Assembly: GCA_025360005.1 (NCBI GenBank)
Contig: JANYDA010000056.1
Location: forward strand, 1-40,409
Direction: 5' to 3'
Source: Fibrobacteria bacterium
Lineage (GTDB): Bacteria; Fibrobacterota; Fibrobacteria; UBA11236
DNA length: 40,409 nt
A model generated the notes under the pieces. The model searched no databases. It saw nothing but the letters and a program-made list of their open reading frames with translations, and had not been told where the DNA came from. Shown one piece after another: positions 1-25,970 of the stretch. Both the position numbers and the translations under genes were made by a program. Within the stretch, counting starts at the first letter, position 1. Each line of letters starts with the position of its first letter.

Positions 1-282
1 AGGGAACGGGGACTGCTGCGGTGATAAGCCTGCGTTGCTTGACGTATTCCACGGGCAGATGGAATCAATTCTGGGAAAAGGTGGACCAGTATGGATTGTC
101 CATGGTAGCGTGAATGTTACATCAGATCGAGATCACACCCGATCCAACACGAACTTTTCGGCCGCATTCCAGGGATTGCCGGGGGTCTTTGGATTCAGCC
201 ACCCATCGAACACCTCGTTCGGAGAGGCGGGGATTGTTCGTTCAATCTTGAATTCAAGCGTGTTCGCCGAATTGTTCACCAC
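1..282 (-). pseudogene. AHSA1/SRPBCC-like gene fragment with early stop
   Basis: Reading leftward from GTG at 282 (or 279), behind a very strong AAGGAGGAG ribosome site, the frame gives about 49 residues and stops with TGA at 133-135. The peptide carries the N-terminal pattern of AHSA1/SRPBCC proteins: an ERTIPASPNEVFDGW helix start followed by a PW..A.K segment. After the stop, the same frame still reads HTGPPFPRID, which resembles the H.GRF..ID segment that follows in the family. This suggests a nonsense mutation in a once longer gene that continues past the window edge. No function should be assumed for the remnant. A genuinely short protein is the alternative. Confidence 0.45.
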
Positions 283-447
283 CGCTTCTCCTCCTTTTTC
301 TTGTCCTTAACCGCGTTTAGGGCGGCGCTGAACGGCTTTGCGACATCCGGAAATCGAGATGGGCCTTTTGCCGGCTGCCCGATAATTGCCCGTAGAGTCG
401 GGTGAGAAATGGCTGTAGGCACATTCGTCAATTGACTCAAGGTTTAA

Positions 448-476
448 ATTATACCTTATGGTGTAATGTTTTGCAA
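448..476 (-). promoter_or_regulatory. Near-consensus sigma70 promoter
   Basis: On the minus strand TTGCAA (471-476) is followed by exactly 17 bases and then a perfect TATAAT (448-453). The surrounding 430-520 stretch is AT-rich. It points at the AHSA1-like fragment. A 54-codon frame, TTG at 440 to TGA at 276-278, lies between and overlaps that start; I do not recognise it and it may not be translated. Confidence 0.5.
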
Positions 477-890
477 GTGCTTTTTTCGGGTTAAAGGGGG
501 GAAATACAGTAATAGGGGGTCGGGCGCAATCAACGCGTTCAGCGATGTCCATAACCGTATGACCGGCATGGACAAGTAGTAAAATGCGGCGGCGCTGCGC
601 GCGGTAGAGAACCATGGCTATATTCATGAAGGGGAAGTCTTTTGCGAGAAGGTTGGGGAGTGTGGTAGCGTACCCCACCATCGACTGGGGGTGCGCTACC
701 ATCGTCCCCGACGCAAGCGGCGGGGGCACGGGCCGAAGGCCCGTTAAATATTGGAAGCGATTGAAATTAGGATCGAGGGATGGGAAAAGAATGCGAAAGC
801 GATCTCCTTTCCATTCTGCCGCGCGGCCCATTCCTCATCCATCCGAAGGCAATGAATAAAAGAGTTCCCGGGCAACGCACTCCGAAAAAA
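477..890. other. Intergenic region with two hairpins, no convincing gene
   Basis: No frame here looks like an intact gene. Two inverted repeats stand out. GGTAGCGTACCCC (664-676) pairs with GGGGTGCGCTACC (688-700) with one mismatch and an 11-base loop. ACGGGCC (728-734) pairs perfectly with GGCCCGT (738-744) around GAA. Both lie downstream of the fibro-slime gene and could end its transcript, although neither has a clear T-run. The minus-strand reading of about 487-620 resembles a transposase helix-turn-helix (see findings). Confidence 0.4.
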
Positions 891-3326
891 TCACGGTCTT
901 AAATATCCGAAGCGGTTGATGAATTTCGTGGTGACCGCGGTAATACGGCTATGGGTGACGGGATCGGTTTCGCCTTGGGTCGCGATGGTCGCCTTTATGA
1001 TGTAAACTCCGGTTCCATACAATTGCCCGTCGCTGGCAACCGGAATGATATTCATCATTACCGTGACCGTGTCGCCTTTTCGGGGTAGCGATTTCCATTT
1101 AGCATCATCCGCCACGGTTCCGGTGGATTTGTTGACGAAGACTCCCAGGTGATCGTAAATGATCGCCGTATAGCTGAAGGGAGACAGGACCTTGAACACG
1201 AAAGCGGGAGTATGAGTCGGGTCGGCATTCGCCAATACGTTGGGGTCACAGTTATGAACGCATGTACCTCCGGTAACCGTCGCCGAGTCCTTGGTAAACC
1301 GCACCACCGAACTAACCCCGCCTCGAATCACGATGGGATCCGAAATAGGCGTTAGGACGGGAACCCCTTTGGGAACCGCCAACAAGCGATCGACATTCAG
1401 AATTCCATGCAACACCGGCGCCGCATTTCCGAATTTCGCCGTGTTATCGGCGTGATCGCCATCCAACGGATCCACGTAAACGCCGACCACTTGATCCCCG
1501 CCCCAAACCTCCAACGTGGAGTTGGCGGTATTCGCCGGAGAGCCGATTTGAGTCGGAATGACGCCGAGGCAAGTTCCTTTGACGCAGTTCAAGGTCACAA
1601 TGAGGGTATCCGGACTATGCGCCTCGGCATCCGGCGAGGGAACCGTGGTGATTTTCGCCGTCATTGATTGGTTGGGAGGCAAGGGTTCGTCCCGCACGAC
1701 GAAGTAAATGCGCGATTCGGTGCCCGCGAAAGTCGTAGTGGTCGGCGACCCGGTGGAGTTCGCGCTGAAAGCCGCCGTGGATTGCCTGGGCGAAGGGCGA
1801 ACTGGCATTTTGACGCTGGGGTGATCCGTCGCGTTCAAGGGATCTTGCCATGAAACCGTGAGCGTGTCGTAATCCGAGGCTTCGGTTTGACCATTGCCAT
1901 TCTTGGCAGTAGAGCCCGCGTGGAAAACGATAGGGGCGGCGAAAACCTGGGTGCCGTTCGCCTGGGTTGGGCTGGTGGCGCGTATCGCGGATTCATTGTC
2001 CCGGCTCACGCTCGTTAAGGCTGAAAAAACCACGGTGTCCAAACCCGCTTGTGTGGTGAGACGGATTTCATACGCGGGGTTGAGTTCGGAGAGATAGCCC
2101 ACGGCGAAGGGTTTTCCGTTTTGATCCAGAATTTCCAGGCTCGAGATCCCGGCGAATTGTTGGGTGTAAACCTGTGTCAGCACGCCGCTGGGAGTATACC
2201 CTGCCTTGGTAGCGATGGCTTTCAAGGTGGTGGTTGCGGTAAGCGCAATCGGTCCAGCGTACAAATGGGTTTGTGGACTCGAGGTATCCGGCGCCGACCC
2301 ATCGGTGGTATACCAAATCACGGCTCCCGGGGTACTGTCGGAAAGCGTGACGGTTTGGTTGGGCGAGGTGAACACGACGGGTCCGCCACTCGGGTTGGTG
2401 GGATTGGCAACGGGAGATCCCACTTGGGGCGTGGACCGTAGCGCCAGGCTGGTGGTGATTTTGGAGTTCGATCCGGTGCTATGCCTTTCGGCCTCGAAAA
2501 AATCCAGAATGTAAGCTCCATTATTCACCAACCCCAAAGCCGCGGCGCTCGCGTCCAAATCCACGCCCGCGTTTTGCTCGGTATGCAGCCCGCCCAAATC
2601 AATCGCCAGGGTGCCGTTGATGAAGACCCAAACGTCATCGTCTCCCGAGAAGTTGAACACCTGTCCGGTGCCTTTCAAGTAGGTGAAGTAGGCGTGGAAT
2701 TCCAAGGTAAAACCAAAGACGTGGTTGAAGGCGGGATCCTTGTCCGGAGCGGATTGCAAGTAGCCGAAAGAATTCGCGTTCCCGTTGGGAAGAGCCCTGC
2801 GGTTGTAGGCCGCGGTTTGATCCGAATCCAACGGGATAAATTGTTGGTTCTGGCTAACCGGATTGGTTTTGGTTCGATCAAACACATAACTATTCCCCGC
2901 TGCGTTGGGAGTGAACGTGAGATCAATCAAGAAGGGCCGGTTGATGTCCTGAGCGGTTCCCGACGCACCGGTCCTGTCGTTGTACCACTGGCCGAATCGC
3001 GTAATGCTGGTAAAACATGAGATTCCGGTGCTGGAATTCAATTTGGAATTCTTGACGGGAGTCCGATTGTCCATGGGGAATACCGCGGTGTCTCCGAGAT
3101 CCCCGGCGGTACCGATGGTTTTTTCCACATAACCGGTGTCCATGCAAGTTTTGAAATGCTCGAAGTCGGGCTGGGTGTTGACGGGATTGGAGATGCCGCA
3201 AGTGTCGTTGTCATTGCATTCCCGCAAATCCCGTATTTTGGCCTTTAACGTGATCGATTGCGGCAACTGGGCCTGAATCGAGACCGTCAGGCCGACGATT
3301 AATCCCCATGCTATTTGGATTTTCAC
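891..3326 (-). CDS. Secreted fibro-slime domain protein with chitobiase C-terminal-like domain
   Basis: This 811-residue protein starts at GTG 3326, with AGAGAGG about 8 bases upstream, and opens with a short hydrophobic signal peptide ending near QAQ (residues 1-20). Residues about 200-296 form a fibro-slime domain: a VFGFTLEFHAYFTYL segment, FSGDDDVWVFING, DLGGLH and an ILDFFEAERH segment. Residues about 312-388 look like a chitobiase/hexosaminidase C-terminal domain (IWYTTDGS..., then TTLKAIA..AGY). The remainder is beta-rich and ends in a GTGVYIIKA...FGYLRP tail, as in secreted Fibrobacter-type surface proteins. Known members of the domain family are extracellular and often linked to adhesion or polysaccharide contact; the exact role here is unknown. 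It is a single gene downstream of, but well separated from, the metal operon. Confidence 0.85.
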   Translation of the reverse strand: MKIQIAWGLIVGLTVSIQAQLPQSITLKAKIRDLRECNDNDTCGISNPVNTQPDFEHFKTCMDTGYVEKTIGTAGDLGDTAVFPMDNRTPVKNSKLNSSTGISCFTSITRFGQWYNDRTGASGTAQDINRPFLIDLTFTPNAAGNSYVFDRTKTNPVSQNQQFIPLDSDQTAAYNRRALPNGNANSFGYLQSAPDKDPAFNHVFGFTLEFHAYFTYLKGTGQVFNFSGDDDVWVFINGTLAIDLGGLHTEQNAGVDLDASAAALGLVNNGAYILDFFEAERHSTGSNSKITTSLALRSTPQVGSPVANPTNPSGGPVVFTSPNQTVTLSDSTPGAVIWYTTDGSAPDTSSPQTHLYAGPIALTATTTLKAIATKAGYTPSGVLTQVYTQQFAGISSLEILDQNGKPFAVGYLSELNPAYEIRLTTQAGLDTVVFSALTSVSRDNESAIRATSPTQANGTQVFAAPIVFHAGSTAKNGNGQTEASDYDTLTVSWQDPLNATDHPSVKMPVRPSPRQSTAAFSANSTGSPTTTTFAGTESRIYFVVRDEPLPPNQSMTAKITTVPSPDAEAHSPDTLIVTLNCVKGTCLGVIPTQIGSPANTANSTLEVWGGDQVVGVYVDPLDGDHADNTAKFGNAAPVLHGILNVDRLLAVPKGVPVLTPISDPIVIRGGVSSVVRFTKDSATVTGGTCVHNCDPNVLANADPTHTPAFVFKVLSPFSYTAIIYDHLGVFVNKSTGTVADDAKWKSLPRKGDTVTVMMNIIPVASDGQLYGTGVYIIKATIATQGETDPVTHSRITAVTTKFINRFGYLRP

Positions 3327-3651
3327 TTGTTTAACCTCTCTTTTAATTCAGCGGTATTCCTTGGCCATTGCTCCAGCCAAACCGGATTAGAGAATAAACT
3401 TACTGTTAAACCTAAGGTTCAGGAGCCCAAATTTTGCGAACCGTAACGTTCGCGCCATGGCGAAGTGGGTTTTTGCGAAAGGCTGGATACGCGAGGAGGC
3501 GGCTGGAGTGGGGTACTACGCCCCCGGAAGCCGCGGTGTCCGCCACTGTTTCTGGTTTAACCAGCGGACATTTTGACCTGAGCATGCCCGCGGGTTCCCT
3601 ACTGGCGCTTGTTGCACGACGTTTCGCCTCTTTCTTTTTTAAGGGGGGGTA
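3327..3651. other. Intergenic region with nested palindromes
   Basis: There is no believable gene in this stretch. TGTCCGC (3537-3543) and GCGGACA (3564-3570) form an inverted repeat. Inside it CTGGTTTAACCAG (3552-3564) is itself a perfect 6+1+6 palindrome. A run of T then A residues and seven G residues precedes the small ORF stop at 3652. The palindromes could be an operator or a relic of an insertion-sequence end. Confidence 0.35.
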
Positions 3652-3747
3652 TTATTTCTTGGTCTTCGCTAAAACTTTGTCGTACTCTTCTTCTCCATTC
3701 GAGAATCGTTTGGTAATGGACGCTATTTCTCCGGCTTGGTATTTCAT
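3652..3747 (-). CDS. Small 31-residue ORF at the end of the metal operon
   Basis: ATG at 3747, preceded by GGAAACTAAAA, opens a 31-codon frame ending in TAA at 3652-3654. The start lies only 25 bases past the stop of the multicopper oxidase gene. The peptide is charged (net positive, with an NGEEEYDKVLAKTKK tail), has no signal peptide or membrane segment, and matches no family I recognise. Position and spacing suggest co-transcription with the metal operon. It may be a real small protein or the remnant of a longer gene. Confidence 0.4.
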   Translation of the reverse strand: MKYQAGEIASITKRFSNGEEEYDKVLAKTKK

Positions 3748-3772
3748 TTTTAGTTTCCTTATTCGTTATAGT

Positions 3773-4993
3773 TTAGTGCGTTGAGTTTGAGGCCGATGTA
3801 AGCCCAGAATCTGCCGCTAAAGGATCTCTAATTTCATAAGTCGCCATCATTTCCGAAGCATGATGCTCAACATGGCAATGGAGCATCCACTTGCCCACAT
3901 TTTCAGCATTCATGATCAAATCGATCGCTACGGCCGAGGGAAGATCGAACACGTCTTTGTATAACTTGGTTCGAGACATTTCCTGTAGCATTTCCCCGTG
4001 AAAATGGATTGTGTGGTTTTGCGTGCCTTCATCGTCCATCGCCACAACTACGAACCTTATTTTTTGGCCTTTTACGAAACTGAGGCCTTTGAGGTTAGCA
4101 TATGCGAGCCCGTTGATCGTGTGGACCTCTGGTCCGCCCCCATGCGCCATGGAGTCTACGATATTTTCCGGCCATTGATCTTGCGGCACATGCTCTCTTG
4201 GATGACAGCCGCCATTCCAAGGTATCAGGGGCGACGTGCAGGTATCCTTCTTGGTGGAATCCTTCATGGTGGTATCCACGGGGGAAACCATTGCCAAGTA
4301 AGTCTTAAAAACCAATGCGATTGTGGTATCGAATTTTACGTATTCGGGATGATCGGGGGGCTCATCAACAATGATCGTTCCGATAAGCCCCAGTGAGAGT
4401 TCCTCCGCTAGGTGGAAGGAGTGGCTATGGTAGGGACCGACTCCCACGGACTTTTCTTCAGCCTTCCAGTGGTAAAGAAATTCATCCCCAGGTTGCACCG
4501 ATCCTCCCGCCGTCCCTTGGGCAGGCCAGTCTTTGGGCCTATCCTTCCTCCATACGCCTTCATTCGTCTCGTTATAAAAAAGATTATGGGGATGAATGCT
4601 TAAGGGCATACCCGTGTTCAGGCCGTTCTTGAAGTGGACTAGAACGGAATCCCCTACGGTAGCTCGGATGATGGGGCCAGAAAGCTGCTGCCATTCAGGT
4701 TGGGCCAACTTATTCCACTGGCTGTCGGTTTGCACGTACCGTATGGTTTTGTAGAGGTAGCGCCGTTCCGGGGTTATAACATCATTAGTCATCATGGCTT
4801 CACCCTGTGGAACCATATCCCATTTGAAAGTCGTCTCGGTAGTGATCCAGTATTCCCTTTTGATGGGCGTATAGGTCGATTTGAAGGAGGATAGGTTTGC
4901 CGGGCCGGTAGGGGAACTTTCTTGCTTAAAGCAACCCGATAGGGATAGAAGTGCGAGGACTAAACATATTCTGAGGGCTTTTTTCGCTTCCAA
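3773..4993 (-). CDS. Two-domain multicopper oxidase lipoprotein
   Basis: The 406-residue product starts at TTG 4993 with AGGAGA 7 bases upstream. Its signal peptide ends in a lipobox (LSLSGC, Cys21), so it is probably membrane-anchored on the periplasmic or outer face. The copper ligands are visible: HPH (134-136), HSH (189-191), HTIHFHG (327-333) and HCHVEHH (372-378), which supplies the type 1/3 cluster. The two cupredoxin domains span about 50-212 and 285-395, shorter than three-domain CueO. Multicopper oxidases oxidise Cu(I), metals or phenols with O2. Next to an RND metal pump, a copper or metal detoxification role is the likely inference. It follows the helical periplasmic gene in the same direction. 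Confidence 0.88.
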   Translation of the reverse strand: MEAKKALRICLVLALLSLSGCFKQESSPTGPANLSSFKSTYTPIKREYWITTETTFKWDMVPQGEAMMTNDVITPERRYLYKTIRYVQTDSQWNKLAQPEWQQLSGPIIRATVGDSVLVHFKNGLNTGMPLSIHPHNLFYNETNEGVWRKDRPKDWPAQGTAGGSVQPGDEFLYHWKAEEKSVGVGPYHSHSFHLAEELSLGLIGTIIVDEPPDHPEYVKFDTTIALVFKTYLAMVSPVDTTMKDSTKKDTCTSPLIPWNGGCHPREHVPQDQWPENIVDSMAHGGGPEVHTINGLAYANLKGLSFVKGQKIRFVVVAMDDEGTQNHTIHFHGEMLQEMSRTKLYKDVFDLPSAVAIDLIMNAENVGKWMLHCHVEHHASEMMATYEIRDPLAADSGLTSASNSTH

Positions 4994-5082
4994 TCGCGTT
5001 CTCCTGATTTGGACTTTTTCTTAATTGGGAATCAAAGTAGATGACGGGCCCCACGGGTTTAGGCAGCCCCTCATCCCTATAT

Positions 5083-5598
5083 CTATTTGCTCGCGCCTTT
5101 TGGATTCATGGCATCTTCATGCTTCGCACCCTCGGTGGGCTTGTGCGAATGGGTGAACTGCTTGTCCAAAAGATCCACTTGAGCCTTCAGCTTCGCGAAG
5201 GCCTTCTTGGTCTCATCCAGTTTTTTCTCATCGGCGGCATCGTGCAACTTATCCGCCAACTTGGCGATGTTTTTGGCATAACCTTGAACCCGCTTCTTCT
5301 TGGATGCATCTAGGGTAGTGTCCTTGTCCAGGTCTTTGGTGGCGGCCTCGATGGCTTCGGCATGTTCATGCATTCCTTCCAATTTACCAGCGGCCAACTG
5401 CGTTTCAACTTCTTTGAGGTGTGCATACAAGGCGGTCATTCCGTCATGGGAGCTCATGACGGTGCCTGGCTTCATCGAATCCATGGAATGGGCTGCCGCT
5501 TTTGTAGAGTCTTTCCCTTCCTGGGCTTGGGCTCCATGGCTGGTGAAGAGCAGGGCCCCTGCAAAGACGGTGGACAGTGTCAACTTGGTGTTCTTCAT
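5083..5598 (-). CDS. Periplasmic helical protein of the metal operon
   Basis: I choose ATG 5598 (171 aa) over an upstream in-frame possibility because AAGGAGATTCAA sits directly before it and a clean signal peptide follows (residues 1-25, ending AQAQ). The mature part is almost wholly helical and charged, like cytochrome b562-type or other four-helix periplasmic metal-handling proteins. A HEHAEAIE stretch, HSH and several Met and His residues near both ends are possible metal ligands. The gene begins 57 bases after the pump gene stops and is followed by the multicopper oxidase. A metal-buffering or sensing role is inferred from context only. Confidence 0.7.
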   Translation of the reverse strand: MKNTKLTLSTVFAGALLFTSHGAQAQEGKDSTKAAAHSMDSMKPGTVMSSHDGMTALYAHLKEVETQLAAGKLEGMHEHAEAIEAATKDLDKDTTLDASKKKRVQGYAKNIAKLADKLHDAADEKKLDETKKAFAKLKAQVDLLDKQFTHSHKPTEGAKHEDAMNPKGASK

Positions 5599-5654
5599 TT
5601 GAATCTCCTTGGTTGTTGGAATGAAGTTCTTAGGACGAAATAGGTATAGAGCAA

Positions 5655-8600
5655 TCAATGTGCCTTGGTTTCCAGAAGGTGCTGGACTGCTTTCCGGCTA
5701 AAGTTCCAGAAGAGGGTGGGCATCAAGGCCATATTCATCAAGGTGGAACTTACCAGGCCTCCGAAAATCACGATCGCAACTGGATACAGGATTTCTTTGC
5801 CAGGTTCACCGGGGCTTAAGATCAACGGTATCAAGGCTAAGGCTGCGGTGAGGGCCGTCATGAGTACGGGTACCATGCGCTCCAGAGCGCCCCGGATAAT
5901 CATATCCTTGGTCCATGTTTCTCCTTCCTCTCGAAGGAGATGCAGATAATGGGAAATCATCATGATCCCATTTCGGGAGGAAATCCCGCATAGGGTGACA
6001 AAGCCTACGAGGGATCCGATGGAAAAGGTGCGGGTGGTGAGCCAGATCGCGGCCACGGCGCCTATCATAGAAAAAGGGATATTGAGCAGTATGAGGCCCA
6101 CAAGATTGGCGGATCGGAAGTGCATAAACAACACCAAGGCCATGCCTATAATCGAGAAGATGCTGAGGATGCCGATCATCCGCGAAGCCTGTCTTTGACT
6201 TTCGAATTGGCCGCCATATTCGATGAAATAGCCCGTAGGCAATTCGATTTTCTGACGTATGGTTTTCTGAATGTCTTCCACTACGGATCCCAAATCCCGC
6301 CCGCTGGTATTGCATTGGATGACGATTCGGCGCCTCACATTTTCCCGGAGGATTTGATTGGGGCCTGTGGCGGGCTGAATGGTAGCTACCGTATTCAATG
6401 GGATTTGCTCCCCATTGGGTAGGTCAATCAGTATCTCCCCGATTTTCTCTATGTTCGCCCGGCTCTCTTTATCCAAGAGCACTACCAGGGAAAATCGTTT
6501 CTGGTTTTCCAGGACCTCGGATGTTTTCTCCCCACTCAAGGCGGTTTGAACGAGTTCGGTGACCTCGCCGGCTTGAAGGCCATAGCGTTTGAGCTCGTCT
6601 CGATTTAATTGGACTTCCACTTGGGGAACGAGCACCTGTTTCTCAACGGACAAGTCGACCACACCTTTGATGGAAGCCAGCTCTTTTTCAATTTGTCCGG
6701 CTTTCTCCCGAAGCAGTGCCAAGTCGTCGCCGTAAAGCTTCACGGCTACCTGAGCGCGGATTCCGGAGAGGAGGTGATCGATACGATGGGAGATGGGTTG
6801 TCCGATATTCACGGCAACACCGGGAATCTGATCCAGATTGTGGCGGATGTCCGCCAGGACGGCTTCCCGCCTTCTCTTGGTCGGTTTGAGGTCCACGTCG
6901 ATCTCGGAGGAATGGACCCCTTCCGCATGGTCATCCTCTTCGGCCCTGCCAGTGCGGCGTCCCGTTGTAATCACTTCCGGGACCTTGAGGATCAATTTCT
7001 CCGCAATGGTGCCTATGCGATCCGATTCGGCCAGGGACGTTCCAGGAGGGGAGAGGATATTGATGGTCGCGGTCCCTTCATTGAACGGGGGCAGGAATTC
7101 TTTGCCCAAGAATGGAAAGGAAACCAAAGCCAAGGCTGCAAGAAGAAGAGCGATCCCCAGAGCCATCCAGGGTCTACCCAAGGTGGGAATTAGAATGATA
7201 TTCCGGTTTGCCTTTTTTAGGAATCGAACCAAGGGCCCGTCTTCTTCCTTCTTTGGAATCGTGCCGTCCGGAAGGATTTCCCTCTGCATCAGCTTTCCCG
7301 TGGGAAGGAGATAGGCACAAAGAGCAGGGGTTATGGTGAGTGAAACGACGAGTGAGGCCAGGATGGAAACGATATAAGCGATTCCAAGGGGGGCGAAAAT
7401 CCGGCCTTCGATGCCGCTTAGGGAAAAGAGAGGTAGGAAAACAAGAACCACCACCAAGGTGGCGAAGACGATGGAGTTGCGTACTTCGGCGGACGCTTTG
7501 AAGATGACTTCGAGGGCCGGTTCCGGATTGGGCCTATGGCGGTTTTCCTTGAGGCGCCGGAAAACATTCTCGACATCCACGATGGCGTCATCCACCAGTT
7601 CGCCGATGGCCACGGCCAAGCCTCCCAAGGTCATGGTATTGATGGAAACGCCGAACAGCCGGAATACCAAGGCCGTGATGAGGATGGACAAGGGAATGGC
7701 GGTCAAGGTGATGAAGGTTGTCCGGAAATTGAGGAGAAATAGGAAGAGGACGATGATGACCAGGATACTTCCATCCCTCAAGGCATCTTCGACATTCTTA
7801 ATGGCACGATCAATGAATGCGGACTGGCGGAAGAGATGGGGATTGACCACCACGCCTTTGGGAAGCCCTTTCTCCAATTCCGAAATCGCGGCATCAATTG
7901 TTTTTGTCAATTCTATGGTGCTTGCTCCCGGTTGCTTCTTCACGCTGAGAATGACTGCGGGATGCGCATTGGCTCCGGCCGAGCCTCGCTTCTGAGGCGA
8001 GCCAAACTCGATGCTGGCGACCCTGTCCAAGGTGATGGGCTGACCGTCGTGGAAAGCCACCACGGTTGATTTCAAATCGTCTAAGGATTGCAACCGGCCC
8101 AAGTTCCGGACTACGGCTTCCGTATAGTCCTGAACAAGAAAGCCACCGGAGGAACTTGTATTGGTGTTCTTGACTGCCGTCTCCACCTCATGCAGGGTGA
8201 CGCCATTTTGTTTCAGCTTATCGGGAGAGACGAGCACATGGTATTGCTTCAGATCGCCGCCGATGGCGATGACCTGGGAGACGCCGGGTATGCTTAAAAG
8301 CCGTGGCTTGATGGTCCAGTCCGCCAAGGTCCGCAAATCCATGGGGGAGATGGAGTCACCGCTGACACTGATAAGCATGATTTCGCCCATGATGGACGTG
8401 ATGGGCCCCAGCATGGGGTTGACCCCACCCGGCAGGCCTTCACGGATGCTTTGCAATTTCTCGGCCACGATTTGCCGGTCGATATAGATATCCGTGCTCC
8501 AACCGAATTCAACATAGACGATACCGAGACCTGGTGCTGAGACGGAGCGAACCCTTTCCACACCTGTGGCGCCGTTCAAGGCCGTCTCAATGGGATAAAC

Positions 8601-8795
8601 GACCAGGGCTTCCACTTCTTCCGGTGAAAGCCCGGCAGCTTCGGCCTGGATGGTTACGGTAGGCCTATTCAAGTCTGGGAAGACATCCACCGGTAGCTTG
8701 ATCAGGACATAGGACCCATAGACCAGTAAAAGGGCGCCCAAGGCCACGACCAGGAGGCGATTGCGCAAGGAAAAACGGATGATTGCGTTAAGCAT
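5655..8795 (-). CDS. Heavy-metal efflux RND permease, CzcA/CusA family
   Basis: This is a full-length (1046 aa) heavy-metal RND pump. An inner-membrane TM1 is followed by the FPDLNRPTVTIQAEAAGLS porter segment, two large periplasmic loops and the TM4 motif AIGELVDDAIVDVEN near residue 400. It exports metal ions by proton antiport, as a trimer with the adaptor and TolC-like channel encoded just upstream. The motif differs from the DAAIVMIEN form known for the copper/silver pump CusA, so the substrate is uncertain. ATG 8795 lies 9 bases after the adaptor stop, and the AAGG ribosome site overlaps that stop, so the genes are tightly coupled. Confidence 0.95.
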   Translation of the reverse strand: MLNAIIRFSLRNRLLVVALGALLLVYGSYVLIKLPVDVFPDLNRPTVTIQAEAAGLSPEEVEALVVYPIETALNGATGVERVRSVSAPGLGIVYVEFGWSTDIYIDRQIVAEKLQSIREGLPGGVNPMLGPITSIMGEIMLISVSGDSISPMDLRTLADWTIKPRLLSIPGVSQVIAIGGDLKQYHVLVSPDKLKQNGVTLHEVETAVKNTNTSSSGGFLVQDYTEAVVRNLGRLQSLDDLKSTVVAFHDGQPITLDRVASIEFGSPQKRGSAGANAHPAVILSVKKQPGASTIELTKTIDAAISELEKGLPKGVVVNPHLFRQSAFIDRAIKNVEDALRDGSILVIIVLFLFLLNFRTTFITLTAIPLSILITALVFRLFGVSINTMTLGGLAVAIGELVDDAIVDVENVFRRLKENRHRPNPEPALEVIFKASAEVRNSIVFATLVVVLVFLPLFSLSGIEGRIFAPLGIAYIVSILASLVVSLTITPALCAYLLPTGKLMQREILPDGTIPKKEEDGPLVRFLKKANRNIILIPTLGRPWMALGIALLLAALALVSFPFLGKEFLPPFNEGTATINILSPPGTSLAESDRIGTIAEKLILKVPEVITTGRRTGRAEEDDHAEGVHSSEIDVDLKPTKRRREAVLADIRHNLDQIPGVAVNIGQPISHRIDHLLSGIRAQVAVKLYGDDLALLREKAGQIEKELASIKGVVDLSVEKQVLVPQVEVQLNRDELKRYGLQAGEVTELVQTALSGEKTSEVLENQKRFSLVVLLDKESRANIEKIGEILIDLPNGEQIPLNTVATIQPATGPNQILRENVRRRIVIQCNTSGRDLGSVVEDIQKTIRQKIELPTGYFIEYGGQFESQRQASRMIGILSIFSIIGMALVLFMHFRSANLVGLILLNIPFSMIGAVAAIWLTTRTFSIGSLVGFVTLCGISSRNGIMMISHYLHLLREEGETWTKDMIIRGALERMVPVLMTALTAALALIPLILSPGEPGKEILYPVAIVIFGGLVSSTLMNMALMPTLFWNFSRKAVQHLLETKAH

Positions 8796-8804
8796 GCATT
8801 GCCT

Positions 8805-9776
8805 TCACTTGCCGGCGGGCTTGGTGGCGGGTTTCGCTGCTGGATTCGCAGCGGACGCAGCGGTCTTTGCGAATTGCAATTGATAATTGCCGCGGGTAAC
8901 GACGACATCCCCGGGGGCGACGCCTTCTACGATTTCCATCCATTTATCGTTCTCGATGCCTGTTACTACCGGTGTCCGGGTGTATTTATTTCCGTCCTCA
9001 ATGAATACGAATCGGTCGCCGCCCGTGCCGAGCACGGCGATGCGGGGAACCGTGATGGTTTCCTCCTCGCGATTGGCCAGGAAGTAGACGTTCACGGTCA
9101 TATTGATTTTAAGTCGCTCTTCCGGGTTCTTGACTCGCAACCAGACTTCTACGGTTCGGCTCTGTGGGTTGACTTCGCTGCCTATGATTTCCACCTTGCT
9201 GTCCATCTCGGAGTTTTTGAGAACAGGAGAATAAACTCGGGCAGACATGCCTTTGGAGATGCTCCCTATTTGGGATTCAAACACTCGGGCCACGGCATAG
9301 ACTTCATGGTAATCGGCGATCTCCAGCAGGGAGGTACCGGGCTCGACCGCATCCCCCTTGATCACATTCTGTTTGACGATTTTTCCGGCGCGGGGCGCGG
9401 CTACCGGTACCCGAATAGGTGTTTCGGAAAGCTGCCTGGATTCGAGAGTGAACAAGGGTTCGCCTTTTTTCCGATATTGACCTAAGGTCGCCTGTATATC
9501 CGCCACCTTTCCCGATATTTTGCTCGAAACATTTTCACGGCTGCCGGGAATGGCCTGGACGGTACCAGACGCTTTAATGGTCTTCTCGATGGCTTGAACC
9601 GTGGCTTCCGCCGTTTGGATTTCAAGATTCTGTTTTGCTTCGGAAGACAGGGTTACGGGGCCGCTCTGGGCCGTTTCCGAAGGTGCAGCATCCCCATGAC
9701 CTTCATGGGCGAATAAGGGCAGTCCAAGTGCAATCAGGCTCGCTGTCAGAATTCTAAGGGTATTTGAAATTACCAC
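8805..9776 (-). CDS. RND efflux periplasmic adaptor (CusB/CzcB-like)
   Basis: I place the start at GTG 9776 (323 aa), which has GGAGG 6-7 bases upstream and begins a good signal peptide. The GTG overlaps the end of the preceding channel gene by a few bases. After the signal peptide comes HEGHG, a His-rich head common in metal adaptors. Barrel-sandwich and lipoyl-like segments (ENVSSKISGKVADI, VPVAAPRAGKIVKQNVIKGD) and a beta-barrel domain follow. The C-terminal tail is an Ala/Pro/Lys repeat (AANPAAKPATKPAGK). Adaptors of this family link the inner-membrane pump to the outer-membrane channel and can pass metal to the pump. Confidence 0.92.
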   Translation of the reverse strand: MVISNTLRILTASLIALGLPLFAHEGHGDAAPSETAQSGPVTLSSEAKQNLEIQTAEATVQAIEKTIKASGTVQAIPGSRENVSSKISGKVADIQATLGQYRKKGEPLFTLESRQLSETPIRVPVAAPRAGKIVKQNVIKGDAVEPGTSLLEIADYHEVYAVARVFESQIGSISKGMSARVYSPVLKNSEMDSKVEIIGSEVNPQSRTVEVWLRVKNPEERLKINMTVNVYFLANREEETITVPRIAVLGTGGDRFVFIEDGNKYTRTPVVTGIENDKWMEIVEGVAPGDVVVTRGNYQLQFAKTAASAANPAAKPATKPAGK

Positions 9777-10984
9777 GTCTTTCCTCCCACAGCTTTTCCA
9801 AGCCGGTTCCACTGGTCGTAAAAAGCATCAAGAATGTTGAGGCCGTCCTGTTCTTCAGAAAGGAACTCCTCCTGCACACGGGACAATTCGAAAATCCCTA
9901 ACAGGCCCTGGGTGAATCCTTTCTCAGATAAATCGAGTTGTTTGCGGCTGAGTGTCTGGATTTCCTTCTGGTAACTCTGGTATCGTTCAACTAAACTTTC
10001 CAGCCGTCCGTGCATCTCCGTGATTTCGGTTTTGAGTCGCGCCTCGGCCGCCGCCCTTCTCGTTTCAGCCAGGCGTATCTCGGCGCGGGACTTCGCGAGC
10101 CCGATTTGGTTGCGGTTGAAAATCGGAAGGGGAAACTCAATCCCACCGCCCAACATGTGGTAGCCTTCCGCTTCGCGATCATATCCCAAGGAAACCGTAA
10201 AAGAAGGATTCCGAAGAATTTTTTCCAGCTCCAGTTGCCGCTTTTGAGTTTCCAGTTCCCGGTCCAAGGTCTTGAGATCCAAATTCTCTTCGATTGCCAA
10301 TTTATAGAGGCCCTCAATTGAGGGGACAATAGGCAGGGTGTCGATAGGATAAGGTGCGATGGAATTCGGACCCATGTTCTTGCCCGTAAGGTAGGCCAGC
10401 CGATTTTCTACCGCTCCCATTTCGGTTTGGATTTCCATCTCCTTCTGTCTTGCCCGTGCTCGATTGAGCTGAGCCTGCGCCTCATCCACCTGGGATAGTC
10501 GACCTTCTTTTACCTTGGCGGATACGATGCGTGAAAGGGTTTCCCATCTTTTTTCAACTTCCAACTGAAGCGCTTTTTTGCGGCTTAGAATCTGCCAAGA
10601 ATAGTAGACCGACCGGATGTCCGAGGCGATATCAAGTTCCCGGGATTTTTGTGATTGACGCTTTGCGGCCAGGTTAGCTTTGGAGACTTGGTACTGATTG
10701 CCGCGAAGGCCGGGCTGGAATTCCTTGGAAAGTCTGACTCCCGCCTTGGGCTTGGCAGGGTCGGTCCAATTATAACCGGCCTCGAAGCCAAGGGTGGGAT
10801 TTCTATAAACCGTCGTGGCCAAGGTGTCGCTCGCCACCACGTCACCTTCTACCTGGGTAGTCAAAAGATCCGGATTGTTCCGGAGCCCCAGTGCGACAAG
10901 CGAGTCTAAGGTGAGTCCTTGAGAAAAGGACTCAGCGTAGCCTAGTATAACGAGGAATACACCAACTCCCCAAAAATTGCGCAT
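9770..10984 (-). CDS. TolC/CusC-type outer-membrane efflux protein
   Basis: The likely start is ATG 10984 (404 aa), with GGGGAG upstream and a signal peptide of about 22 residues. Longer in-frame starts would put extra residues before the signal. The sequence shows the paired outer-membrane efflux protein repeats: two long helical regions with ALGLRNNPDL near the start and EENLDLKTLDRELETQKRQL at mid-protein. A GYNW beta segment lies in the first half. As a trimer it would form the channel for metal export by the downstream adaptor and pump. It overlaps the adaptor gene at its 3' end. Confidence 0.92.
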   Translation of the reverse strand: MRNFWGVGVFLVILGYAESFSQGLTLDSLVALGLRNNPDLLTTQVEGDVVASDTLATTVYRNPTLGFEAGYNWTDPAKPKAGVRLSKEFQPGLRGNQYQVSKANLAAKRQSQKSRELDIASDIRSVYYSWQILSRKKALQLEVEKRWETLSRIVSAKVKEGRLSQVDEAQAQLNRARARQKEMEIQTEMGAVENRLAYLTGKNMGPNSIAPYPIDTLPIVPSIEGLYKLAIEENLDLKTLDRELETQKRQLELEKILRNPSFTVSLGYDREAEGYHMLGGGIEFPLPIFNRNQIGLAKSRAEIRLAETRRAAAEARLKTEITEMHGRLESLVERYQSYQKEIQTLSRKQLDLSEKGFTQGLLGIFELSRVQEEFLSEEQDGLNILDAFYDQWNRLGKAVGGKTW

Positions 10985-11124
10985 GTGAAAAGAACTCCCC
11001 GTGGTTGAGCCATAAGAAACCGAAGGTTGGATTAAATACGGAAACATCGACTGAAAGCACCGGAGGCATAGGCTCAGGCGTTAGTCGATTGAAGGGATGC
11101 CGCGTATCGGCTCCCTATGGAGAT

Positions 11125-11616
11125 TTAAACGAGGATACGAAGCGTGAGGAGATAAACAGGTGGGCCGGACCTGTTTTGGGGGCGAGGTCTATCAACGGAA
11201 TAGGTTTGAACGAGGACGGGTCCTTCGAAAATCGCAACATATGCGGTAGGGATTTCCAGCGCGAAGGATTCGCTTCCCACCATGGATTTTTTGGTAATAG
11301 ACAATTCGGAAATGCAGCTTCCATCTTGCGTGAACATGGAATAGCCGGTTTGGACGGCCTCATCTAATTGAGCGTTAGAGGGCGCTTCATGGCCATGGCA
11401 ATGAGAGTGATGATCAGGGTCCTCGGAAGTATTGGAAGCCATCTTTAAAGGCTTCATCAAGCCCAGGGATTGGATGGCTTGGCGGACGTCACTCGCGAAG
11501 GCTTCATTGATGCGGCAACAGCTGAAGAACTCGCCTGTGAGAAGAAAAAAAACAGAGAGTACAGCGATTGCAGGGAGCAGTCGATTTCTTTTGAAGCTTA
11601 AGATAGTCCCTGGCAT
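11125..11616 (-). CDS. Secreted Cys/His-rich protein, first gene of metal operon
   Basis: ATG 11616 (163 aa) follows AAGGATACT and begins a signal-anchor-like segment (ILSF..LLPAIAVLSVFFLLTG). The mature part contains a CC pair and the dense metal-binding-looking stretch HHSHCHGHE, then a predicted beta-rich C-terminal half. I do not recognise the family. It is 140 bases upstream of the channel gene in the same orientation, with a promoter-like sequence just before it. A metal-binding or surface-sensing role is inferred. The alternative start at 11649 adds 11 residues and lacks a ribosome site. Confidence 0.6.
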   Translation of the reverse strand: MPGTILSFKRNRLLPAIAVLSVFFLLTGEFFSCCRINEAFASDVRQAIQSLGLMKPLKMASNTSEDPDHHSHCHGHEAPSNAQLDEAVQTGYSMFTQDGSCISELSITKKSMVGSESFALEIPTAYVAIFEGPVLVQTYSVDRPRPQNRSGPPVYLLTLRILV

Positions 11617-11636
11617 AGTATCCTTCTGGTCGAGGA

Positions 11637-11665
11637 AATATAAGAACATGCGGGAGTCAGGGCAA
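11637..11665 (-). promoter_or_regulatory. Candidate promoter of the metal operon
   Basis: On the minus strand TTGCCC (11660-11665), 17 bases, then TATATT (11637-11642) lie just upstream of the first metal-operon gene. I saw no MerR-type long dyad between the two boxes, so the regulator is not evident. Confidence 0.35.
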
Positions 11666-11779
11666 TCAAAGACGCTTGGTTTCTGAATTCTCCTGGCCGC
11701 AGTTCAGTTTGAATCAAAAGCCGACCCTTACTTTCTAAAGATTTGAAGTGTAAATCATCAACGAATTGCCATTTGTGGG

Positions 11780-12368
11780 CTATGTAAATCCCGAAAATGG
11801 AACCTGGAATAGGCGTGTCGTCTTATTTTCTGGAATGGAAAGGTGGTTGATCCACTCGGAACTTTGATGCCCAAAGAGGATAATGATTTTCAATTTTTCT
11901 ACACTGAAATCAAGATCAGTGAGAAACTCATTCACCAGATCATCTCCCGTAGATTTTGAGATTCCTTGGAAAAAGAGATTGCCCCTTAGCAGGGTGTTGA
12001 AAAAGTCATTTCGACACCCTGAAAACGAGGCTGAAATGCCAAAATCGCAGGAATTTCAAACATCATGGGTATCATACGTGTTACGTAAACGGACTTTTTC
12101 AACACCCTGTTAGAGTGAGAGCGGCAAAGCACCAGGATTCACCAGTATTCTCAGGGAATATTTTTAATTGAATTCTTTCAATAAAAACGATTTCCGCCCT
12201 TTCCTTTTCTGCAGATTCTCGAATTTTGGTGAACTCTCCATGTATCCAAGATTGGACCTCGGCGGACGAGGATTGGAACAATCCATTTGATGGTCGCCTA
12301 ATACCCAGTCCAAATTTCTGGAGGAGCCTTCCAACCGAACGTCGGGAAAGGTTGACTTTTTCCGGTTT
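11780..12368 (-). pseudogene. Decayed IS630-family transposase split by a MITE
   Basis: On the minus strand, directly after a TAG at 12369-12371, the frame reads LSRRSVGRLLQKFGL. It then gives W..GEFTKIRESAEKERAEIVF, the winged-helix and pre-catalytic region of IS630-family transposases. After the 120-bp insertion at 11990-12109 the reading resumes in another frame with RGNLFFQGISKS, a VNEFLTDL helix, IIILFGHQSS and TRLFQVPFSGFT, then TAG at 11780. These match the later IS630 blocks (FL..L, VDGHP-like, RLFFLPPYSP). The expected catalytic Asp/Glu positions are lost (IVFIERIQ for IYFGDESG, LFGHQ for VDGHP), and about 30 residues appear to be missing between ENTGESW and AALTL. It cannot be active. 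Confidence 0.8.
11990..12109. mobile_element. MITE-like element, 120 bp, TTAG target duplication
   Basis: The ends are perfect 18-bp inverted repeats (CAGGGTGTTGAAAAAGTC), flanked by direct TTAG at 11986-11989 and 12110-12113. A partial internal copy of the end (ACACCCTG, 12014-12021) can pair with the left terminus. There is no coding capacity. Removing the element with one TTAG gives a continuous reading frame across the host IS630 remnant. A TA duplication with one extra unpaired base at each end would give the same excised sequence, so the exact duplication length is not settled. Confidence 0.85.
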
Positions 12369-12510
12369 CTATTTTTTCACACCACCCCAAAAACACCTTC
12401 AAAATGCTTGCCCGAAGGGCATCTATTCGATGTCGCTCGCCATTTCCGAAACGCGCTACTCCGCCTTCTTTTCTTCCATTCGATCCCAACCTGAAAACCC
12501 GCATCTCCCG

Positions 12511-13536
12511 TCATTCTTTCTTCCACAGCGAAAACCTCCTATCCGCCACCGCCTTATAAAAATCCACCAACCTGCTCCTTGCCTGCCCCTCCCGCACCAA
12601 CGCAAACCCACGCGCCTTCTTACCCAATTCCTTGAACAGCTCATGCTCATTTTGCGTATGCGTATACACCAGCATCCATCCGCCCGGCTTGAGCGATGCC
12701 GCCGCCTTCTCCAGCAACTTCTCCGGCCGGTAAAAGCGCAGCGGCAGTCCCCACAACAACAGATGATGCCGGGTCACAAAGGGATAGAACCAGGTCAAAA
12801 CATCCGCCGCATTCCCCGTCGTTTTCAGGAAATCCCCGACCTCGTAGGTAATGTCTGAGTTACCTGTCTGCGCGCCGTAGGCCTGCGCATAGTCTTTGCG
12901 CGAGCGGAAGTCAGGATAGATTCCGTAGCCATCCGCTTCCACGCCTTTCAATTTCACGTCGCGGCCCTGGGCCGCATTCGCGTAGCGCAGCCAGCGCTCC
13001 AGGGCGAACACATAGTGCCAATCCTGCGATCCGACGTCTATTGCATTCAGGGGGGACGGCAAAAAGCGAGGAATTTTTTGCCCCTCGAATTTGCTACTGG
13101 AAGTCGCTTTCGTCGAGGATCCGGGTTCCGCTTCCCGCGCCCCGGGAATGTCCAATCCCCCGCAAGCCTGTTCCAGGATATCCAACAGATAGAGATTCTT
13201 CCTGTACAGCGCCCGCGTAGAGGCTTTCCGCAGCGGCGCCAGGTTGTATCGCTCCCGCAACTCCCCTTCGCGTCTCTCCGCCTCCTTCCTGGCATCCGGC
13301 GATTCCCCGGAATTTTCAAGTAGTGGATTCCGGCCGGCCGGCTTCGCTCCCTGGGGATTGTTTAACTCGTGATTCGCAATGCCCAAGTAGTCGAACAGGT
13401 TTTCCTTGGGCTCATGGGGCAAGGTCGGGGCGCCGCGGGACCACTTGAGGGTTTGGCGGATCCAGAAGGAGAATGCATTTCCGGGAATGCGGGAGAAGGC
13501 GAGCATCGTCCAGAGTCGGTAGGGAACCAGGGGCAT
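12511..13536 (-). CDS. Class I SAM-dependent methyltransferase-like protein
   Basis: The 341-residue product has the order of a Rossmann methyltransferase: AIDVGSQDW (about 165-173, motif I), GVEADGY (198-204), YEVGDFL (231-237), DVLTWFYPF (245-253) and LKPGGWMLVY (282-291). Motif I lacks the usual GxGxG, so binding of S-adenosylmethionine is likely but not certain. Residues 60-155 are charged and of low complexity. ATG 13536 has GGAG very close upstream. The substrate is unknown. It stands alone, divergent from the TonB receptor operon, and is the first gene with the GC-rich codon use typical of the rest of the window. Confidence 0.6.
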   Translation of the reverse strand: MPLVPYRLWTMLAFSRIPGNAFSFWIRQTLKWSRGAPTLPHEPKENLFDYLGIANHELNNPQGAKPAGRNPLLENSGESPDARKEAERREGELRERYNLAPLRKASTRALYRKNLYLLDILEQACGGLDIPGAREAEPGSSTKATSSSKFEGQKIPRFLPSPLNAIDVGSQDWHYVFALERWLRYANAAQGRDVKLKGVEADGYGIYPDFRSRKDYAQAYGAQTGNSDITYEVGDFLKTTGNAADVLTWFYPFVTRHHLLLWGLPLRFYRPEKLLEKAAASLKPGGWMLVYTHTQNEHELFKELGKKARGFALVREGQARSRLVDFYKAVADRRFSLWKKE

Positions 13537-23471: not shown

Positions 23472-24581
23472 CTAGGTTGCGGGCGGACCGGGACATTCCC
23501 ATCCGGACGTGAAGCTTTTGTTTTTGTCCGGGCCGAACAGAGGCGCCCGAAACAGCAAGGTTACCCCCGCCTCCAATCCCCCCGCGCCAAAGCCGGGATT
23601 TTCCGCGCAGTCGCGATGATCCCGCGAGGCCTGCGGCCCACCCCGAGTTTGCCCGGTCCCGGAAGCCGTTATCTCCCAGCCCTTACGATGGGCATCCAGA
23701 TAAGCGGCGGCGCGATCGGATTCATATAAAGCAACGGTGACTGAGGTGGACGTGTTTTCGCAGAGGCGGGAGAAGGACGAGGAGACCAGCGCCTTGCCCC
23801 AAGCCCCGGCATCGATGCGGGCGGAGCGCGGCGGGTTTTCCCGGGTAAGCCGGATCAAGGCGCGGGTATCCAGGTAGGTCAAATGCAGTTCGCCCGGCGA
23901 AGCGATCAGCCAGGCCGCGAAGGGGGCCAAGGTGCGCGTGGCCGTGGGCGTGCCCCCATGACAAGCGGACAAGGCCACCAGGTCGAATGGCTTGCCGCTA
24001 TCCCGGCGCATCGGGGCCGCGAAGGATCGCAAGCCGGCGGCGAAGGAAGCCAGGGTAAAGGCCAACTCCGGCTGGGAACGGGAGTAGGGGATGCCGTTTG
24101 ATTCGGGAATTTCATGCCCGAAATAAAAAAAGGAACGATGCTCCGCAGGCGAGGCGTATTTGCGGAAGAGGTCGGCCTCGGCCTGCATTCCGTCTTGCTT
24201 GCGCGCATAGGCCGCCGTACGCTCCAGGCGGCCGTTACGGTATAGCCGCAGCGATCCTTGCCCGCCGGGAAGGCCCCACAAATGCTTGGGACGCTGATGG
24301 AAAATCAGCACTTCCGCGTCCTTGGCGCCCAGACCCACTTCCTCCGCTTGGGATTCGGCTTCGCTGTCGGCCAGATGGCGCTTACCGTTTTGATCAAAAT
24401 AGGCATAACCCGCATCGCCATGGATGACGTAGACGAACTGGAAACGTGTGGGGAAAGAAGACGCTGGGGAAACCTGCGTGTTACCTGGCGCACCGGAGGA
24501 GGACCGGGAAACGGCGCAACCTTGTGCTAGAAGGCCGCAGGTGGCGGCGAGCACGGCCAGCCAAGAGGCGCATTTCCGCAT
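23472..24581 (-). CDS. Lipoprotein with clostripain/caspase-like fold
   Basis: The 369-residue protein starts at ATG 24581 (AAGGA 5 bases before) and has a lipobox (LLAQGC, Cys22), so it is an envelope lipoprotein. The middle resembles clostripain (C11) and other caspase-fold proteases. An N-terminal FQFVYVIHGDAGYAYFD strand and acidic turn comes first, then FFYFGHEIPE with His156. LVALSACHGGTPTATRTLAPF with Cys207 follows, then AAWLIASPGELHLTYLD, close to the clostripain ACLMG...YAD..V.SE block. His156/Cys207 would be the catalytic dyad. The family cleaves after Arg or Lys. The match is by pattern only. It is the last gene of a three-gene envelope operon. Confidence 0.6.
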   Translation of the reverse strand: MRKCASWLAVLAATCGLLAQGCAVSRSSSGAPGNTQVSPASSFPTRFQFVYVIHGDAGYAYFDQNGKRHLADSEAESQAEEVGLGAKDAEVLIFHQRPKHLWGLPGGQGSLRLYRNGRLERTAAYARKQDGMQAEADLFRKYASPAEHRSFFYFGHEIPESNGIPYSRSQPELAFTLASFAAGLRSFAAPMRRDSGKPFDLVALSACHGGTPTATRTLAPFAAWLIASPGELHLTYLDTRALIRLTRENPPRSARIDAGAWGKALVSSSFSRLCENTSTSVTVALYESDRAAAYLDAHRKGWEITASGTGQTRGGPQASRDHRDCAENPGFGAGGLEAGVTLLFRAPLFGPDKNKSFTSGWECPGPPAT

Positions 24582-24588
24582 CGCATCC

Positions 24589-25047
24589 TTAGGTAAGGAT
24601 AATGATGAGGATAAGGATCACTATCAATACGCCGCTACTGATGTAAATGCCTCCGCCCAGGGGGGCCTGCTCCATTCCTTGCTGGATATACCCCGCGAAT
24701 GCGTTCAGTCCCCCATCCGGAACCCGCGCGAACCCGGCCGTCCCGTTCAATTCCGCGCCATAGTCCCGGTATTTGCCGGCCAGGGTCTCCAGGGTTGTTC
24801 TATCGGCAGGATCAAGCCCTTGCAAGCCTTCCGCCTTTTCCAGGCCTTGCGCCATATGATCGATGAACTTTCCCAACTGCTCGCGCTTGGCCGCGGGATC
24901 GGAGGTGTTCTTGGTCGCCTGCACCATTTCATTGAGAGCCGCCTGGTAGCGGGCTTCCAGGGCATCCGATGCCGACGCCATGGCACCGGTTGCCGCGGTT
25001 AAGGTGCAAAAGACGCTCAACGCCATATATCTCGTAAAATTGTTCAT
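24589..25047 (-). CDS. Secreted helical protein with C-terminal membrane anchor
   Basis: The 152-residue protein has a good ribosome site (GGAGAAG) before ATG 25047 and a signal peptide ending near MASA. The mature part is helical and charged (ALNEMVQATKNTSDPAAKREQLGKF...). Its end is a very hydrophobic Ile/Leu run (GVLIVILILIIILT) that should sit in the inner membrane. I do not recognise the family. The caspase-like lipoprotein gene begins 7 bases after its stop, with a ribosome site overlapping this gene's end, so the two are probably made together. Confidence 0.6.
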   Translation of the reverse strand: MNNFTRYMALSVFCTLTAATGAMASASDALEARYQAALNEMVQATKNTSDPAAKREQLGKFIDHMAQGLEKAEGLQGLDPADRTTLETLAGKYRDYGAELNGTAGFARVPDGGLNAFAGYIQQGMEQAPLGGGIYISSGVLIVILILIIILT

Positions 25048-25087
25048 TTTGTTGCTTCTCCAAGTTAGAGGGCCAAGCGGCGGAATT

Positions 25088-25351
25088 CTAATGGGTCGCC
25101 CTGTCGATGGACCTGTCGATTTTATTGCCGGCTTTATCTACGCTATTATCGATGTTCCGGCCCGCTTTGTCGATTTTCTTACCCGCCTTTTCCCCTATGC
25201 CATCCGGTTCCAAAGCATCGTGGATGGGATCCTTGGTTCCGTCGATTTTCTCGCCCAACTTCTCGGCAGGGCCTTTCTTGCTGCAACCCGTTGTCCCCAT
25301 CAGGGTGGCGGCCAACAACAAAAGTGCGGCCGATAATCCGAAATTCTTCAT
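25088..25351 (-). CDS. Small lipoprotein with amphipathic 11-residue repeats
   Basis: ATG 25351 (87 aa) follows AAGGATTACC and gives a lipoprotein signal (LMGTTGC). The mature chain is a series of roughly 11-residue units of the form KAG.KID.SID (GEKAGKKIDKAG, RNIDNSVDKAG, NKIDRSIDRA). These should form an amphipathic helix like apolipoprotein or LEA-type repeats that lie on membranes. I do not recognise it further. It is first in the three-gene envelope operon, 40 bases before the next gene. The upstream in-frame start at 25387 lacks support. Confidence 0.6.
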   Translation of the reverse strand: MKNFGLSAALLLLAATLMGTTGCSKKGPAEKLGEKIDGTKDPIHDALEPDGIGEKAGKKIDKAGRNIDNSVDKAGNKIDRSIDRATH

Positions 25352-25562: not shown

Positions 25563-25970
25563 ATGGCCAAGGAAAAAGGCAGCAAAGAAAATCCCTGGAA
25601 GCTCAAGACCCCGCCGGGCGCTTCGGAGTACGCCATGCATAAGGAGGAAAGCGCGGAGCCGCCCATACTCGTATGCACCGTGGGTAAAACGGTTTTGCAT
25701 TACCAATGGCGCGCCGTGGACGATCTGCATAAAATGCTGAAGAGGCACGGGGACTGGATGGATCTGGGCGGCGCGGACGAGCAGAAGCCCGCCAAGGACG
25801 GCACCGTAGAGGCTTGGGGCCGATCGCCTAAGAACCCGGTGGGCGGCTGGTATGGGTTGAAGAAGGGCTTGCGCGGCCGCTTCGGAGTCTACTTGCCACC
25901 GTTGTTGGAAGCGCTGGGGCTGGCGGAATTGGAGCACAATCCCAAGAACAACCGCATGCGGGCAAAGTAG
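25563..25970 (+). CDS. Conserved small protein, DUF6855-like
   Basis: ATG 25563 (135 aa) has AAGGA 8 bases upstream; the longer frame from 25107 runs through non-coding sequence and opposing genes. The sequence has the look of a widely conserved soluble family: a KENPWKLKTPPG..EY N-terminus, HYQWRAVDDLHKMLKRHGDW, GADEQKPAKDGTVEAWGRS, NPVGGWYGLKKGLRGRF and LGLAELEHNPKNNRMRAK. I match this to DUF6855 from memory, so the name is tentative. No catalytic motif is apparent; the function is unknown. It is divergent from the small lipoprotein operon and its stop nearly meets the RNA helicase. Confidence 0.7.
   Translation: MAKEKGSKENPWKLKTPPGASEYAMHKEESAEPPILVCTVGKTVLHYQWRAVDDLHKMLKRHGDWMDLGGADEQKPAKDGTVEAWGRSPKNPVGGWYGLKKGLRGRFGVYLPPLLEALGLAELEHNPKNNRMRAK

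Follow-up and report, generated by a model that had tools for sequence, protein, structure and literature searches.

A conserved two-gene module encoding a predicted C11-like caspase-fold lipoprotein and a helical, putatively membrane-anchored partner in Fibrobacterota and other bacterial lineages

To our knowledge, few bacterial caspase-like enzymes have a known dedicated partner, and most of those that do act inside the cell. Among the C11 cysteine proteases, fragipain is an envelope enzyme able to process surface and secreted proteins (PMC9308784). In PmC11, Asp177, two residues before the catalytic Cys (Cys-2), is the primary S1 residue and is stated to be conserved throughout C11, the pocket is also lined by Thr204, Met205 and Asp207, and autoprocessing takes place at Lys147, in the loop that follows the catalytic His (PMC4850288). 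Here we describe a locus in a 40,409-nucleotide contig of a Fibrobacteria bacterium (JANYDA010000056.1, positions 1 to 40,409, henceforth referred to as the window) in which a gene for a predicted caspase-fold protein is accompanied by a small partner gene. Three open reading frames follow one another on the minus strand, in the order small lipoprotein (25088..25351, 87 aa when counted from the ATG), 152-aa protein (24589..25047) and 369-aa protein (23472..24581), spaced 40 and 7 bases apart. Conservation across phyla leaves no doubt that the 152-aa and the 369-aa reading frames are genes. An earlier note, made from the window alone, had called the three genes an operon; the close co-directional spacing holds in this genome, but only two of the three form a conserved unit, and the core of the locus is a two-gene module of protease gene and partner gene rather than a three-gene operon because these two genes are nearly always paired across loci. 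No convincing match for either protein of the pair was obtained in Pfam or NCBIfam (the window protease had no match to the C11 family, PF03415, at E 10), a description of the pair as a system was not found in the open-access literature, and the pair appears to be undescribed as such.

The 369-aa protein is predicted to contain a C11-like caspase-fold domain at approximately residues 42-291, followed by a C-terminal extension with conserved Cys325 and Cys363. A PDB sequence search with the single protein returned chance matches only, and a search with a profile of its family matched PmC11 weakly (E 0.095). The fold was read from an AlphaFold2 model, built from 7 sequences (mean pLDDT 69, pTM 0.74). 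With this model, C11 proteases took the first five places in Foldseek, all with E of at most 4e-9 (the best, at 8.7e-10, was iotapain) and the next, unrelated match stood at 1e-2; all five matches below 0.001 were thus C11 chains. Alignment with VIA-align gave a Z of 18.5 for iotapain over 259 aligned residues, and values of 18.5, 18.1, 17.5 and 16.0 across iotapain, a Parabacteroides C11 protease and clostripain; below C11 came a SAVED-CHAT protein (Z 11.9) and then gingipain, legumain and caspases (Z ~9). The modelled strands span residues 45-54, 89-96, 146-157, 199-207 and 222-227, and the alpha-beta-alpha caspase/hemoglobinase sandwich by which clan CD is recognised is present in the model, with C11 proteases as the top matches and caspases and legumains after them. 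The caspase fold predicted in the earlier note is therefore borne out by the modelled structure. When five divergent homologues were scanned against the curated cut-off of PF03415, three scored above it (loci L017, L023 and L048), one fell short by 0.6 bit (L037) and one was clearly under (L046). Overall, we place the 369-aa protein in clan CD as C11-like but stop short of proper C11 membership, since it lacks two tested features of characterised C11 enzymes, the Asp at Cys-2 and a basic autoprocessing residue after the His (Lys147 in PmC11, Arg181/Arg190 in clostripain).

The N-terminus of the 369-aa protein resembles that of a lipoprotein. Cys22, which follows a hydrophobic leader, is kept in 42 of 43 sequences, and the lipobox is strict in 19 of the 40 complete sequences and looser in most of the others (AQGC in the window). 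The protein is accordingly predicted from its sequence to be exported and lipid-anchored in the cell envelope, where we infer that it probably sits on the periplasmic face of the outer membrane.

His156 and Cys207, the two residues singled out in the earlier note as a clostripain- or caspase-like pair, are retained in all 42 homologues of the 43-sequence alignment that cover them. In the AlphaFold2 model, His156 ends strand 146-157 and Cys207 ends strand 199-207, so that the His and then the Cys lie at the C-termini of consecutive core strands, as in clan CD enzymes. This invariance argues for use of the two residues as a catalytic dyad. Further near-invariant positions are His54-Gly-Asp56, Glu90-Val-x-Ile-Phe-His95-Gln96, Ser228, Leu232-His233, Cys325 and Cys363. 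As modelled, His54, His95, His156 and Cys207 would all lie at C-terminal ends of strands, the site of clan CD active centres.

The substrate pocket, however, appears to differ from that of characterised C11 enzymes. A profile alignment to 3uws_B places Ser205, which is Ser in 41 of 43 sequences, at the position of PmC11 Asp177, and an ungapped extension of it places Leu232, His233 and Thr235 (Ser in most homologues) at those of Thr204, Met205 and Asp207. A profile-profile alignment with five canonical C11 proteins aligned the Cys region only, and a joint alignment misplaced the His. The Gly that follows the His in C11 is replaced by Glu in most family members (HG to HE), and the loop after His156 (consensus GHEIPExxGxGYxxSxP) lacks a conserved Lys or Arg across the family alignment. 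One protein scoring above the C11 cut-off (L084) has Asn at Cys-2, and the Asp is therefore not absolute in C11; an acidic group might still come from Asp56, located where strand 1 ends. Since both the S1 Asp and the basic residue of the activation loop are missing, an Arg/Lys specificity is not supported, and Arg/Lys substrates, which the earlier note had proposed for a protease assay, are not the obvious choice. The Ser for Asp at Cys-2 and the Glu for Gly after the His also mean that the 369-aa protein could either differ in specificity or be non-proteolytic. In the latter case the fold and the Cys/His pair would have been kept for binding or for another reaction, which would also accommodate the additional near-invariant His54, Asp56, His95, Gln96 and His233, located at or just past the C-terminal ends of strands on the active-site side; we nevertheless consider a non-proteolytic protein unlikely, as His156 and Cys207 never vary.

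The pairing of the 369-aa gene with the 152-aa gene is near-obligate. A contig search with a single sequence returned nothing, and with the alignment it returned 41 loci. Of 43 protease genes, one lies at a contig edge, which leaves 42 testable loci, and in 41 of these the partner gene is located directly upstream on the same strand, with a gap of -26 to +76 bases. The paired loci come from Fibrobacterota, KSB1, Ignavibacteria and related lineages, Balneolaceae, Rhodothermia and Krumholzibacteriia. All six family relatives have the partner gene as the nearest upstream neighbour of the protease gene, and in 15 whole genomes the 16 partners and 16 proteases are each adjacent to their counterpart; these genomes were picked via the pair, and the comparison is thus a search for unpaired extra copies, of which none was seen. 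Among 168 genomes of the window's phylum, the same seven carry both protease and partner, and an eighth carries a frame-broken partner only. This remnant (L073:3880-4287, plus strand), in a genome of the same genus that lacks the protease, goes out of frame after approximately 75 residues, which would fit a joint loss of the two genes. When genomes were drawn evenly from the phylum to which a Balneola genome belongs, 20 of 198 had the protease. The loci share no third gene. In two genomes of a sister genus, a second partner-like gene flanks the protease gene (L011:10655-11098, plus strand, and L013:11706-12917, minus strand). Distances between proteases and between partners are correlated (r 0.83, 39 loci), which is no evidence of contact because common descent explains it. 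The sole protease locus without a recognisable partner (L020:1-1300) has an OmpA-type gene ending just upstream; its extended reading frame includes a hydrophobic stretch that could be a leftover of the partner's membrane segment.

The co-occurrence of genes anticipated in the earlier note therefore holds for the 152-aa gene and the protease (41 of 42 loci, 16 of 16 pairs) and fails for the small lipoprotein. Its 11-residue periodicity, read in the note as an amphipathic repeat, is real and well above shuffles, since only 0.06% of 5,000 shuffled sequences scored as high at any period from 3 to 19. Relatives of this lipoprotein are present in seven of the ten family genomes, and the window is the only one of the seven in which the gene adjoins the pair. 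Two same-genus genomes have it on the contig and strand of the pair, at 1.3 and 5 kb upstream, in one genome it shares a contig with the partner remnant, and in three it is on other contigs; no relative was found in any locus searched outside the family. A three-gene operon in which the 11-residue-repeat lipoprotein is a functional third member, for which the tight spacing in the window and the two same-genus genomes would speak, is thus an extremely improbable arrangement given this distribution, and we regard the small lipoprotein as a neighbour that is no part of the conserved module.

The surroundings of the pair in the window have other features of their own. A gene for a DUF6855 protein (E 2e-70; 25563-25970, plus strand) is divergent from the small lipoprotein gene. 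The G+C content is ~0.49-0.57 over the first 13 kb (1-13000) and ~0.58-0.64 in the remainder (15000-40409), and the AT skew is markedly negative at 2-7 kb; the first ~13 kb may be of other origin or contain unusual genes.

The 152-aa partner begins with a predicted signal peptide. The AlphaFold2 model is a four-helix bundle (pLDDT 81.7) with helices to residue 47 and at 51-73, 80-101 and 111-127, and the terminal hydrophobic segment is helical at 138-151 with low confidence and has no tail after it. Because no cytoplasmic sequence follows this membrane segment, signalling through a released cytoplasmic domain is argued against. Strong conservation is confined to residues 45-58 and 99-128 and two hydrophobic positions in the membrane segment, and comprises Lys54-Arg55 at the start of helix 2 (kept in 43 of 43 homologues, and also in both extra partner-like genes), the loop between helices 3 and 4 (99-111), and helix 4 with the pre-membrane stretch (114-128). 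With helices running in alternate directions and the last one heading for the membrane, the turn between helices 1 and 2, which bears Lys54-Arg55, and the loop between helices 3 and 4 should both lie at the membrane-distal end of the modelled bundle. As Lys54-Arg55 lies within a helix in the model, it would be unusual as a cleavage site and may be structural. A fold search with the partner model matched generic helical bundles only (Z up to 8.8) and thus gave no functional hint.

We tentatively favour, at a little under an even chance, a two-gene envelope module in which a C11-like protease acts on, or is controlled by, its membrane-anchored partner. The downstream gene would encode an exported, lipid-anchored C11-like (clan CD) cysteine protease and the upstream gene the partner dedicated to it, a four-helix bundle that would likewise be exported and that a C-terminal segment would anchor in the membrane. 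The protease would recognise the membrane-distal tip of the partner and cut there or, alternatively, the partner would keep the protease inactive until an envelope signal alters their contact. The fold similarity, the conserved dyad, the near-obligate pairing and the predicted topology of the partner are computational results; the catalytic activity, the partner's part as substrate or regulator, the choice of membrane and the signal are inferences. A different, and rather unlikely, arrangement is one in which the partner serves the protease as inhibitor, chaperone or anchor, with other proteins of the surface or periplasm as the substrates. The one-to-one pairing fits this equally well, the conserved bundle tip could be a docking site, and fragipain in Bacteroides, a cell-surface C11 protease, frees many surface proteins and activates toxins (PMC9308784); the S1 pocket is nonetheless unlike that of fragipain-type enzymes, and the two partners per protease in L011 and L013 are a little easier to reconcile with substrates than with a stoichiometric inhibitor.

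The earlier note had also suggested membrane stress, the processing of secreted proteins or defence as possible roles, of which the first two may still apply. A scan of 110 neighbouring proteins found OmpA in six, DUF4398 in four, and Ice-binding, M48 and glycine-zipper families in three each; since there was no background control, these envelope-type neighbours are only a weak hint of a stress role. Defence received no positive support: PADLOC models gave no match with the six proteins of the pair that were scanned, and no copies were found in viral contigs, phages or plasmids. These results weigh against a pair that serves self-killing or phage defence by proteolytic release of a helical protein that damages membranes, in the manner of bacterial gasdermins, as do the predicted export of both proteins and a partner modelled as a four-helix bundle that matched generic helical bundles alone. 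Despite a similar outline, with a caspase-like protease beside a membrane protein, a hydrophobic C-terminal segment without a tail in the partner, and a Pycsar-type effector gene that adjoins the pair on the other strand in Balneolaceae, we hold such a pair to be very unlikely.

The Balneolaceae neighbourhood is an observation in its own right. After the pair, on the opposite strand, lie genes for a Pycsar-effector-type membrane protein (PF18967) and a cyclase-like protein (L046:8273-8845 and 8912-10849, both minus strand). The latter resembles class III nucleotide cyclases in sequence and occurs at five loci (L046, L049, L050, L051 and L053), and a PycTM-type homologue occurs also at L038, L044 and L054, there with no cyclase-like gene; judged by their sequences, the two genes are a possible Pycsar-like system. 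PADLOC matches among neighbours were mostly to OmpA and other cross-matches by appearance.

What is new here is a caspase-fold protease family with an altered pocket and a fixed, apparently undescribed partner. That such a protease is inherited together with a single small membrane protein in several phyla points to a specific and directly testable protease-partner relationship, and the pair is open to genetics because cultured hosts exist (Fodinibius, Balneola). A more specific form of our preferred reading, which we put forward as doubtful, is an envelope proteolytic switch conserved in the Fibrobacterota-Bacteroidota-Ignavibacteria lineages, in which a caspase-fold lipoprotein with a non-clostripain specificity would cut one dedicated membrane-anchored helical protein and would, as part of the same conjecture, form with it an exported equivalent of the protease-substrate pairs that work inside the cell, gasdermin systems among them.

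The bacterial gasdermins and their caspase-like proteases share with the present pair the two-gene layout of protease and membrane protein, and differ in that the partner described here is modelled as a four-helix bundle and that both proteins of the pair are predicted to be exported. Iotapain (PDB 6n9j, 6nag) and the C11 zymogen of Parabacteroides distasonis (6mzo) are the best fold matches, with ~260 residues aligned at 12-14% identity; the 369-aa protein departs from them in which of its residues are invariant, in its conserved C-terminal Cys pair and in having a fixed partner gene. PmC11 of Parabacteroides merdae (PDB 3uws; PMC4850288) can be aligned with the 369-aa protein over a strand, the catalytic Cys and the ASP motif that follows, and has Asp177, Thr204, Met205 and Asp207 where the latter has Ser205, Leu232, His233 and Thr235. 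Fragipain (Fpn) and the doripains of Bacteroides and Phocaeicola are likewise envelope C11-type cysteine proteases, come from the same broad bacterial group and reach the cell surface. These enzymes cut after Arg (LTR and QTR sites) and are activated via a cleaved loop, and the sections of PMC9308784 used here mention no fixed four-helix partner gene for them, whereas the 369-aa protein lacks both the S1 Asp and the basic loop residue and has such a partner.
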